From: Planctomycetota bacterium
GTDB taxonomy: Bacteria; Planctomycetota; Phycisphaerae; Phycisphaerales; SM1A02
Assembly (NCBI GenBank): GCA_027622195.1
Contig: JAQBZO010000001.1
Span: 62,001 to 126,000, forward strand
Direction: 5' to 3'
Length of the DNA stretch: 64,000 nucleotides
In this document: in pieces, positions 36,711 through 55,134 of the stretch
How the letters are laid out: the number at the start of each line of letters is the position of its first letter
Numbering within the stretch: the first letter of the stretch is position 1
The notes under the pieces: generated by a model
Databases searched by the model: none
Told to the model about the DNA's origin: nothing
Seen by the model: the letters and a program-made list of their open reading frames with translations, nothing else
Position numbers and translations under genes: made by a program

Positions 36711-37520
36711 TTAGCCTCCGACCACAGCGCGCCAGAATCCAGTCAACTTCGTTCCAGCGGGAACGACTGACTTGACTTGCACCTTGTCGTCGCGGACGTA
36801 CGGCTGTCCGAGAAGGGTCACTTCCTCGAAGTACTTGCGGATCTTGCCTTCAGCAATCTTGGAGGCAATCTGCGCAGGTTTTCCAGTCGCTTCGGCCTCT
36901 GCTTGGGCAGTAGCACGCACCTTGGCAACCTCGTCGGGGCAGATGCCTGACTCGTCGATGGCGGCAGGAGTCGGCACTGCAGCGGCAACATGCTGGCAAA
37001 TACCGACACCCACATCATCGGGAAGCGTTCCCTCATAACTGAGGATCACGCCGAGTCGATGGTCGTGGTGGAGGTACTTGGCAAAGGAAGTCGCATCGAT
37101 GCGCACACCCTTACCGAATTGAACATTCTCGCCCGTCTTGAGTCGGACTTCATCGAGTCGCGCGGTCATGGCAGGAGTCATCGTGACGGCTCCCGCAGGA
37201 AGTGCGAGGGCCATCTTGGCGAGGTCTTGCGCCATCGCTCGGAACTCATCATTGCGCGCAGTGAAATCGGTCTCGCTGCGAACATCCATGATGACGGCCT
37301 TGTTACCGTCGATCAGAATGGCAACGCAACCCTCTCCAGCGGCACGCTCGGTGCGAGAGTCCATCTTGTCCTTCATTTGCGCGCGAAGAACTTTTTCAGC
37401 AGCAACGGCATCGCCATTTGCTGCGACCAATGCGTCTTTGCATGCACCCATTCCCAGACCTGTCTTCTGACGAAGGGACATGACAGCCTTGGGATCGATT
37501 TTCACAGTGACATCGCTCAT
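36711..37520 (-). CDS. tsf: elongation factor Ts
   Basis: 269 residues. Guanine-nucleotide exchange factor for EF-Tu. N-terminal UBA-like domain with MSLRQKTGLGMGACKDALVAANGDAVAAEKVLR, and the TDFTARNDEF motif that inserts near the EF-Tu Mg site. A long core domain follows, ending KVQVKSVVPAGTKLTGFWRAVVGG. Follows rpsB in the canonical rpsB-tsf order with a 33-bp gap; GGAG lies 8 nt before the ATG. Confidence 0.96.
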   Translation of the reverse strand: MSDVTVKIDPKAVMSLRQKTGLGMGACKDALVAANGDAVAAEKVLRAQMKDKMDSRTERAAGEGCVAILIDGNKAVIMDVRSETDFTARNDEFRAMAQDLAKMALALPAGAVTMTPAMTARLDEVRLKTGENVQFGKGVRIDATSFAKYLHHDHRLGVILSYEGTLPDDVGVGICQHVAAAVPTPAAIDESGICPDEVAKVRATAQAEAEATGKPAQIASKIAEGKIRKYFEEVTLLGQPYVRDDKVQVKSVVPAGTKLTGFWRAVVGG

Positions 37521-37553: not shown

Positions 37554-38411
37554 TTAGGCTTCAGCAGTCGTGGCCGCTGGAGCAGATTCGTCTTGTGCTG
37601 GTGCGGATGGAGCAGGTGCTGATCCATCATCCATGCGGAAACGGCTGCGGGTCGAGCGGCGACGAGGAGCCTGTTGCGAGTCTCCACGAATCTGCGTTTC
37701 ACCCTCTGACGATTGATCACCTGGCTCAGGTCGTGACTGCTTGCCTTCTGCAATCGCCGCGCACAATTCGCGCACCACGATGTCGATCGAGCGCATCGAA
37801 TCATCGTTTCCTGGGATCGGAATATCAGCGAAATCAGGATTGCCATCGGTGTCGATCAAGCACACCGTTGGGATGCCGAGATTCTTCGCTTCGCGCAGCG
37901 CATTCATTTCACGATTCACATCGATCACGACGATCGCCGCTGGGAGTCGACCCATCGAACGAATGCCGCTGAGGTTTCGATTGATCTTCGCGTGTTCGCG
38001 AGTGAGCTGCGCTTCCATCTTCTTCGAGTACTTCGTCTTGATCTCGCCCGATTGAATGAGCGCGTCGAGTTCTTCGAGTCGTCGAAGTCGTTCACGAATC
38101 GTTCGGAAGTTCGTGAGGATGCCACCGAGCCAACGCTCAGTGACGTAGGGCATGTTCACTTCTTTGCAGTGCTGCTCAATCGACGCGCGCGCTTGGCGCT
38201 TGGTGCCGACAAAGAGCACATCTTGATTCTTGGTGACGACCTGAGCGAGGAACTTCTTCGCAAGAAGGATTCCCTTGATCGTTTCCTTAATGTCAATCAC
38301 ATGGATCTGGTTCTTGACTCCATGGATATACGGTCCCATTTTGGGATTCCAATTTGACCGACGTTGACCAAAGTGGATACCGGCTTCAACGAGTTCATTC
38401 ACGAGCGACAT
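37554..38411 (-). CDS. rpsB: 30S ribosomal protein S2
   Basis: 285 residues from ATG 38411 (MSLVNELVEAGIHFGQRRSNWNPKM is the classic start); the frame extends upstream, but only through the leader. GGAG 8 nt before the ATG. Family blocks: KNQDVLFVGTKRQARASI, VTERWLGGILTNFRTI, IVVIDVNREMNALREAKNLGIP and PGNDDSMRSI. The C-terminus is extended by ~45 residues rich in Arg/Ser/Pro/Ala (RRRSTRSRFRMDDG...APAPSAPAQ), which is longer than in E. coli. It has a ~195-nt structured leader (38412-38607). Confidence 0.96.
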   Translation of the reverse strand: MSLVNELVEAGIHFGQRRSNWNPKMGPYIHGVKNQIHVIDIKETIKGILLAKKFLAQVVTKNQDVLFVGTKRQARASIEQHCKEVNMPYVTERWLGGILTNFRTIRERLRRLEELDALIQSGEIKTKYSKKMEAQLTREHAKINRNLSGIRSMGRLPAAIVVIDVNREMNALREAKNLGIPTVCLIDTDGNPDFADIPIPGNDDSMRSIDIVVRELCAAIAEGKQSRPEPGDQSSEGETQIRGDSQQAPRRRSTRSRFRMDDGSAPAPSAPAQDESAPAATTAEA

Positions 38412-38448
38412 GAGAGATTCTCCAAATGCAGCGACACCGACGAAGAGG

Positions 38449-38549
38449 CGAGATGGACCCGCGAGGGCGCCTTTTCGTCTGAGGGCGCTTGTCGTGGCAC
38501 TGCGGAATGCAGCGCAAGACAAAAAACGTTTCGGACACGGTCCATCTCG
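38449..38549 (-). promoter_or_regulatory. structured rpsB leader: three-way-junction-like fold
   Basis: On the minus-strand transcript, an 11-bp perfect closing stem (38539-38549 with 38449-38459) encloses two hairpins: a longer one closed by TTGTC/GACAA (38518-38522 with 38489-38493) with a 7-bp GCGCTGC/GCAGTGC inner stem (38509-38515 with 38497-38503, ATTCC loop, one G-U), and a second with GCGCC/GGCGC (38484-38488 with 38467-38471). Ribosomal proteins often repress their own operon through such leaders; an S2- or S2/EF-Ts-responsive element is inferred. It could instead be attenuation or RNA stability. Confidence 0.55.
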
Positions 38550-38613
38550 GCCGCGCCGTGCCTTCCAAGCACCGATCCCAAACGGGGGCGGAGTCCTCGA
38601 AAAGCGAAACGGA

Positions 38614-38642
38614 AAGATACCTGAATTGGCGCAGGGGATCAA
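38614..38642 (-). promoter_or_regulatory. rpsB-tsf promoter TTGATC-17-TATCTT
   Basis: On the minus strand TTGATC (38637-38642) and TATCTT (38614-38619) with a 17-nt spacer; predicted start about 38607, giving a leader of about 195 nt that contains the junction fold. Confidence 0.55.
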
Positions 38643-38676: not shown

Positions 38677-40083
38677 ATGGCACCGCCCATGCTTTCCTCC
38701 TGCTACAAAGCATATGACGTTCGCGCCGTATATCCGCAGCCGCTGAGCGAAGATGTCGCGTGGAGGACTGGTTGGGGAACCGCGGCATTCCTCTCCCAGC
38801 GCGTTCGTGAGACTGGATTCGATGGTCCGATGGCGCGACATGTCGTGGTGGGACGGGACATGCGACTGAGTTCGCCTTCACTCGTTGCGGCACTCAAGGA
38901 AGGCATTCGTGCCTTTGGATTGAGCGTGATCGATGTCGGACTGGTCGACACTCCGTTCGTGTATTTCGCAATCAATCATCTTGGCGCGTGTGGAGGAGTG
39001 CAGGTGACCGCGAGTCACAATCCAGCGCAGTACAACGGATTCAAGGTATCGCAGGCGTACGCCAAGCCAGTTGGAAGTGGAATCGGACTCGAGCGAGTGA
39101 AAGCATTCGCAGAGCAAGTGAATCCAACGGACCATGATCCGAAGGGAATGGAATCATCGCGTGATTTGTGGGCGGCGTACCGAGATCATCTTCTGCGTCG
39201 ACTGGATCCGACCATCCTCGATGGCACGACCACACTGCGCGTCGCGATTGATGCCAGTAACGGCATGGCTGGAACGGCCGTTCCCAAAGTATTCGCTGGT
39301 GTTGCCGGACTCAATCTCTTGCCCATTCACTTTGACAATTCAACCGGGGTCTTCGTGCACGATCCCAATCCGCTCGTCGAGGCGAATCTTGCAGAGGTTC
39401 GCGCGGCAGTGGTTCGAGAAAAAGCGCACTTTGGAGTCTGCTTCGACGGAGACGCAGATCGCTGCATGGTGGTGGATGAAAACGCGGCGGTGGTGGGGTG
39501 CGACTTGCTCCTAGCAGCACTCGTTGCGGATGCGCTCGCCCAGAATCCTGGCGCAGCCATCGTGTACGACTTGCGATCGAGCCGTGCGGTGCGCGTCGCC
39601 ATCGAATCGGCGGGTGGTATTCCCGTTGAGTCGCGTGTCGGTCATGTGTTCATGAAGGCGCGCATGGCGGAGACCGCTGCTCCCATTGGCGGAGAACTTT
39701 CTGGACACTTTTACTTCGCAGACATGTGGAACACTGATAGCGGCATGCGTGCATTCATCGCGGTGGCTTCGATGTTGGCGCGTCGCCGTGTGCCACTCTC
39801 CACCATCATTGCGCCGTTTCGTCAGTTCGCACAAAGCGGTGAAATCAATTTCAAGACTGAAGACACCGCGAAGACGATCGACGCGCTCGTGCAGGCACAT
39901 CCCAATGCGACGATCACTCGTCTCGATGGAGTGAGCATCGACGCGGGTGATTGGTGGTGCAATGTGCGTGCGAGCAATACTGAACCACTGCTGCGCCTCA
40001 ATCTCGAGTCGGCATCGGTCGAACTCACCGCATCGAAAGTTGCATCGATCGGCGCGATGCTCGGCACGCGCGTCGAACACTAG
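38677..40083 (+). CDS. phosphomannomutase/phosphoglucomutase
   Basis: 468 residues, alpha-D-phosphohexomutase family. Active-site serine in TASHNPAQYNGFK (about residue 110), metal loop DGDADRCMVVDE (three Asp), and the sugar-specificity/phosphate C-terminal elements GGELSGHFYFAD and RASNTEPLLRLNLES. Supplies Man-1-P or Glc-1-P for polysaccharide/LPS precursors. AAGGG lies 9 nt before the ATG. It is followed by a KAP-like ATPase gene 3 nt after the stop. Substrate preference (Man versus Glc) cannot be read from sequence alone. Confidence 0.93.
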   Translation: MAPPMLSSCYKAYDVRAVYPQPLSEDVAWRTGWGTAAFLSQRVRETGFDGPMARHVVVGRDMRLSSPSLVAALKEGIRAFGLSVIDVGLVDTPFVYFAINHLGACGGVQVTASHNPAQYNGFKVSQAYAKPVGSGIGLERVKAFAEQVNPTDHDPKGMESSRDLWAAYRDHLLRRLDPTILDGTTTLRVAIDASNGMAGTAVPKVFAGVAGLNLLPIHFDNSTGVFVHDPNPLVEANLAEVRAAVVREKAHFGVCFDGDADRCMVVDENAAVVGCDLLLAALVADALAQNPGAAIVYDLRSSRAVRVAIESAGGIPVESRVGHVFMKARMAETAAPIGGELSGHFYFADMWNTDSGMRAFIAVASMLARRRVPLSTIIAPFRQFAQSGEINFKTEDTAKTIDALVQAHPNATITRLDGVSIDAGDWWCNVRASNTEPLLRLNLESASVELTASKVASIGAMLGTRVEH

Positions 40084-55028: not shown

Positions 55029-55134
55029 GAGGACGGCCGGGCCCGAAGGTCGGTTGACTCGTGAAATTGGTCAGGGCCTGACGGCAGCAGCCATAAGCGT
55101 CGTGATCCGAGCTTTCGGTCACCTGGCCGTCCTC
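55029..55134 (+). ncRNA. ffs: signal recognition particle RNA (small bacterial, 4.5S-type)
   Basis: About 106 nt. The ends pair as GAGGACGGCC (55029-55038) with GGCCGTCCTC (55125-55134). The Ffh-binding apex at about 55068-55091 aligns base for base with E. coli: GGTCAGG, then GCC-TGAC-GGC, then AGCAGCC. The inner pair U-A of E. coli is G-C here (compensatory), and the tetraloop is TGAC (URRC type) in place of GGAA. It sits directly upstream of dnaX, as in many bacteria. Its function is co-translational targeting with Ffh. Confidence 0.92.

Follow-up and report, generated by a model that had tools for sequence, protein, structure and literature searches.

The rpsB-tsf mRNA of the Phycisphaerales probably begins with a lineage-specific ribosomal-protein leader RNA through which S2 represses its own synthesis, a reading to which we assign a probability of roughly 0.75. 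That the leader holds a conserved, cis-acting structured RNA is almost certain, and, judging from aligned leaders, its shape is kept across more than 40 related genera. The element was previously uncatalogued; its kind, the ribosomal-protein leader, is known. A regulated, structured leader had been proposed in the first-pass annotation of the window, the whole stretch of 64,000 nt that was analyzed, and that proposal is strongly supported by compensatory changes, a conserved promoter, and the tie of the element to rpsB alone.

The rpsB-tsf locus and its promoter

On the minus strand of the window, rpsB is followed by tsf, and about 265 bases separate rpsB from a divergent phosphomannomutase-like gene on the plus strand (start, 38677). 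The features of the locus are as follows.

36711..37520, minus strand: tsf, elongation factor Ts (PF00889, E 3e-40)
37554..38411, minus strand: rpsB, ribosomal protein S2 (PF00318, E 9.6e-80)
38420..38423, minus strand: Shine-Dalgarno-like GGAG, a few bases 3' of hairpin H2 (from the sequence and its spacing over relatives)
38614..38619, minus strand: putative -10 hexamer TATCTT, identical and in the same place in two congeners
38637..38642, minus strand: putative -35 hexamer TTGATC of the rpsB promoter, its place conserved in relatives

The promoter-like sequence TTGATC-17-TATCTT had been noted earlier, with a start about 195 nt ahead of rpsB (38411), and it is indeed present at 38642-38614 on the minus strand. 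It agrees with the consensus at 8 of 12 positions, which is under the cut-off of a generic promoter scan. Two congeners (L032 and L033) have TTGCC-17-TATCTT at an equal distance from rpsB, and the best promoter-like site in 83 representative leaders had a mean score of 8.87 compared to 6.97 in shuffles. Because the place of the promoter is conserved, transcription most likely starts near 38607, which would give a leader of about 195 nt; nothing was found that places the start downstream of 38460. Elsewhere in the window, a bacterial small SRP RNA (RF00169, 50.9 bits) at 55034-55132 on the plus strand was the sole Rfam match.

Collection of related leaders

Relatives were needed because the fold of a single sequence cannot tell which pairs matter. 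A DNA similarity search with the leader over the family gave strong matches limited to two congeners and one other species. In view of this weak similarity the rpsB genes were used as anchors, and the regions upstream of rpsB were gathered from most of the family's 45 genera, with more leaders from the order's other families. Covariation in H2 was evaluated over 72 sequences, both in a MAFFT alignment, which is independent of structure, and after realignment to the model. The MAFFT figures are given first because model-based realignment leans towards the structure. The covariance model, designated R1, comprises 72 sequences.

Hairpin H2 covaries across genera

Nearly all leaders of the family carry the string AAGCGCCC, followed by GGTGTCGCTG, usually 30 to 80 nt further on; the latter ends 9 to 76 nt (median, 18) ahead of the start codon. 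In the window these strings close a hairpin, designated H2, at its base, within the following set of elements.

38534..38562, minus strand: hairpin H1, GGCACGG/CCGUGUC, with a 15-nt loop (38555-38541), assigned by homology of place
38539..38549, minus strand: 5' strand of P1, also one strand of the 11-bp stem of the first-pass annotation, with core AGAUGGA at 38547-38541; conserved P1
38497..38515, minus strand: hairpin P2, variable, moderately supported
38483..38490, minus strand: AAGCGCCC (J2/3), 5' base of H2, near-invariant in 104 unique cores
38474..38479, minus strand: 5' strand of P4, GACGAA, covarying helix
38471-38468 / 38450-38447, minus strand: P4b, a 4-bp helix enclosing P3, pairs checked
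38458..38467, minus strand: apical hairpin P3, CCC-UCGC-GGG; H2 of the window and of one g5 species fold alike
38449..38459, minus strand: P1', 3' strand of P1, with core UCCAUCU at 38457-38451 in the H2 loop; conserved P1 and g5 model
38439..38444, minus strand: 3' strand of P4, UUCGUC, covarying helix
38429..38438, minus strand: GGUGUCGCUG, 3' base of H2, whose CGCU pairs with AGCG; near-invariant, with compensatory changes in L096, L121 and L122

The string pair AAGCGCCC/GGUGUCGCUG occurs once in the window's genome. The AGCG-CGCU pairing at the base of H2 holds in all sequences, and where the strings do vary, the variation is matched: AAGUGCCC is accompanied by GGUGCCACUG in L096, and AAGCACCC by GGUGAUGCUG in L121 and L122. 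Above an internal loop of H2 sits P4, the sequences of which are unrelated between genera while the pairing is kept, as in GACGAA/UUCGUC of the window versus CGAGUG/CACUCG of genus g5. Over ten H2 pairs in the 72 sequences, 80 cells were changed on both sides compared to 31.7 in shuffles. The covariation score was 0.256 versus 0.121 in shuffled alignments; none of 500 shuffles scored as high, and slid registers were all far lower. Realignment to the model gave similar figures. When H2 was folded alone, the window and the g5 species had the same minimum-energy shape despite their unlike sequences.

Some leaders depart from the common form. In L127-L135 and L138 (genus g37 and relatives), AAGCGUCC occurs with GGUGACGC, and the C/U mismatch that flanks the H2 base has become a U-A pair, giving a six-pair stem. 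L117 shows a near duplication of the 3' motif (GGGTGTCGCTGC ... CCGGTGTCGCTGA), again ahead of rpsB.

The loop of H2 pairs with an upstream hairpin

The contact designated P1 was evaluated by comparing the upstream region with the 16-base stretch that ends a few bases before GGUGUCGCUG. Over 82 representatives the best helix had a mean score of 18.24, compared to 15.50 for upstream regions exchanged between species (standard deviation of the mean, 0.24). Scores of at least 18 were obtained for 59% of representatives versus 16% of swapped pairs and 2% in a control window, and GUGG/CCAC is frequent within the P1 of relatives. A search for P1 free of any constraint on place was not above controls; it rose above controls once restricted to the place beside the 3' motif.

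H2 encloses the 3' strand of P1, and the 5' strand of P1 is located far upstream, so that P1 and H2 are interleaved as a pseudoknot. Where P1 is good, its 5' strand falls in a hairpin loop in 70% of leaders, compared to 18% of random places. For the 16 sequences of genus g5, a model consisting of H1, the contact, the H2 base, P4 and P3 (34 pairs) was 95.4% paired. None of 500 shuffles reached this value, and slid versions were 31 to 43% paired. Compensatory changes in this genus were found in 8 of 9 H1 pairs and 2 of 6 contact pairs. The results for P1, H1 and genus g5 show that the conserved architecture is two hairpins with paired loops. Covariation across the aligned leaders documents the H2 base, P4, the P1 contact and, in genus g5, H1. 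In the window, H1 is placed by homology of position rather than by covariation of its own, and the segment folded alone favors a different pairing.

Distribution of the element

Of 129 rpsB leaders in the family, the covariance model found the element in 127, among them leaders outside its training set (L094, L099, L100, L103, L116, L119 and L158-L160). The sole failures were both sampled species of genus g14 (L123 and L124), in which the element has apparently been lost. In the order's other families R1 matched 15 of 29 leaders, plus L194 and L196; it matched none of 29 leaders sampled in the class's other orders and gave no clear case in other phyla. The element is dispensable, since it is missing from about half of the leaders sampled in the order's other families, from the two g14 species and from every sampled leader of the class's other orders.

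An exact-pattern scan of named genomes gave, among the matches listed, rpsB-linked copies in records labeled Phycisphaerae, Phycisphaerales, Phycisphaeraceae, Phycisphaera and Planctomycetota, and the lone exception among them was a record labeled Cyanobacteria. That record (RHKP01000006.1; L242/L341), from a metagenome-assembled genome titled 'Cyanobacteria bacterium CYA', has a Phycisphaerales leader together with a Phycisphaerales-like S2, and its label or binning is probably wrong. The four distant genomes L201-L204, also of the phylum, gave matches that were without an S2-like start motif and were treated as chance, as were pattern matches away from rpsB among those listed.

Relation to known S2 leaders

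In general terms the element has the hallmarks of a ribosomal-protein leader: its structure covaries, sits in the 5' UTR of a ribosomal-protein operon and is specific to that operon. It resembles in this respect the candidates of Eckert and Weinberg 2020 (PMC7247131), which are lineage-restricted structured 5' UTRs of ribosomal-protein genes with presumed autogenous control; the main text of that paper names neither an S2 leader nor Planctomycetes. No such element was named in Planctomycetes in the open-access literature searched.

Rfam holds two S2 leaders, RF00127 (t44) and RF01815 (rpsB). Neither matched the window at E values up to 10 or ten relatives at E values up to 1, in agreement with the earlier remark that the fold was not a recognized one. 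As positive controls, the E. coli leader scored 83.5 bits with RF00127, a Pseudomonas leader matched, and L332 matched RF01815. The t44 leader likewise precedes rpsB-tsf but differs in that its model has no match in the window or the relatives.

The rpsB motif RF01815, described from Alphaproteobacteria and others (Meyer et al. 2009, PMC2704228), has P1 and a three-stem junction in which J2-3 pairs with an extension after P1 (PMC2704228). Both elements lie in the 5' UTR of rpsB, and both have the helix order P1, P2, J2/3, P3, P1' and 3' extension. In each, J2/3 forms a pseudoknot with that extension, and the paired extension lies directly ahead of the Shine-Dalgarno sequence. The RF01815 topology is thus present in the Phycisphaerales element, with H1 as an addition. 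The conserved letters differ: RF01815 has CCUCCGGU/AACCGG and CACAC..GUGG around P1, whereas the Phycisphaerales element has AAGCGCCC/GGUGUCGCUG. The proportions differ as well, since RF01815 combines a long P1 with a pseudoknot of about 5 bp, and the Phycisphaerales element combines a short P1, which a separate hairpin (H1) usually presents, unlike in RF01815, with a long pseudoknot stem (base, P4 and P4b). By sequence and by model, then, the Phycisphaerales element is not a member of RF01815, though it probably works in a similar way and a distant kinship is possible.

We are evenly divided over whether the element is an independently evolved class of S2-responsive leader, in which S2, or S2 with S1, would recognize two hairpins joined by a loop-loop contact and thereby shut the ribosome-binding site, unrelated to the proteobacterial motif despite the same topology. 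A divergent member of the described rpsB motif (RF01815; t44, RF00127), inherited from a shared ancestral leader, seems less probable. The same gene, the same helix order and the pairing of J2/3 with the 3' extension (PMC2704228; RF01815 alignment) speak for common descent; against it, neither Rfam model matches, the conserved letters differ, and no intermediate was seen among the leaders sampled from the class's other orders.

Proposed regulation by S2

Gene context and precedent suggest that S2 would bind the leader, and S2 is the probable ligand; the structure itself is documented by covariation. In E. coli, S2 with S1 represses translation of rpsB-tsf via the leader (PMC10931766), and repression by S2 in vivo was reported by Aseev et al. 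2008, as cited in PMC10931766. Following the presumed start near 38607, the leader folds into H1, the variable P2, and H2 (AAGCGCCC ... GGUGUCGCUG), and the H1 loop pairs with the H2 loop, the contact P1 being interleaved with the H2 stem. Excess S2, perhaps together with S1 as in E. coli, might bind the composite H1-H2 fold and hold H2 closed next to the ribosome-binding site, which would block loading of the 30S subunit. Output of S2 would fall, and that of EF-Ts would follow through coupling.

The E. coli operator as reviewed excludes the ribosome-binding site (PMC10931766), whereas H2 of the Phycisphaerales ends beside it. In genus g29 the 3' strand of H2 continues directly into the Shine-Dalgarno sequence. 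The distance from the end of H2 to the start codon exceeds 30 nt in some leaders, and direct blocking is less obvious there.

That the leader senses S1, EF-Ts, some general signal of translation or anything else in place of S2 is improbable. S1 is a partner of S2 in E. coli, and tsf shares the operon. However, the element occurs once per genome and ahead of rpsB, a placement that favors the first-encoded protein as the ligand.

Other readings of the leader

The first-pass annotation had drawn a three-way junction, with two hairpins closed by an 11-bp stem. The 121-nt stretch does fold better than its shuffles (z = -3.1; 0 of 200), and its lowest-energy fold contains the drawn junction. The 11-bp complementarity CGAGATGGACC/GGTCCATCTCG (38549-38539 / 38459-38449) is real, but its role is that of the loop-loop contact rather than of a junction-closing stem. 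The first hairpin, P2 (38515-38497), also stands: a stem of at least 6 bp precedes AAGCGCCC in 37% of relatives compared to 4% of shuffles. The second hairpin, GCGCC..GGCGC (38488-38467), does not, as it occurs in 14.5% of relatives (12 of 83) versus 14.4% of shuffled sequences, which is chance, and it would consume the near-invariant AAGCGCCC. Compensatory changes are present in relatives, and in place of the second hairpin it is the H2 base and P4 that covary; the junction topology is not the conserved feature. The segment proposed for a covariance search (38449-38549) does not include the most conserved 3' part (38444-38429).

With the loop contact left out, the junction (-43.4 kcal/mol) and the H1-H2 model (-42.4 kcal/mol) are equal in energy in the window, and because of this equality before loop contact, alternation between the two folds is conceivable. 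Nevertheless, the chance-level occurrence of the second hairpin and the covariation of H2 make it very unlikely that the leader uses the junction, either as its working fold or as one of the states of a switch.

The idea that an upstream open frame is translated, so that the conservation would reflect an N-terminal extension of S2 or DNA sites, can be dismissed: no stop interrupts the rpsB frame back to an ATG at 38690 in the window's genome (37554-38690, minus strand; 378 aa), but that ATG lies upstream of the conserved promoter, 68 of 134 leaders have an in-frame stop in the stretch that runs from about 60 nt ahead of AAGCGCCC to the start codon, and distances from AAGCGCCC to the start codon are spread evenly over the three frames (46, 47 and 41). 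Gene callers may wrongly annotate an N-terminal extension of S2 over the leader.

Mimicry of 16S rRNA and intrinsic attenuation were also rejected. Metagenome-assembled genomes commonly lack a 16S rRNA gene, and none was found in the 46 contigs of the window's genome; compared with the 16S region of a relative, both conserved strings did no better than chance. The sole terminator-like site on the leader strand (38544-38532) was not above chance. This weak stem and the six T residues after it (38544-38523, minus strand) lie in the H1 region, and the T run is missing in the congeners.

Implications

The leader adds a strongly covarying RNA family that is missing from Rfam, in a phylum without a ribosomal-protein leader in the open-access literature searched. 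Together with the proteobacterial rpsB motif, it provides two sequence-unrelated RNAs of equal topology that probably have one protein as their reader. What S2 recognizes on its own mRNA would thereby become testable by comparison of the two RNAs.
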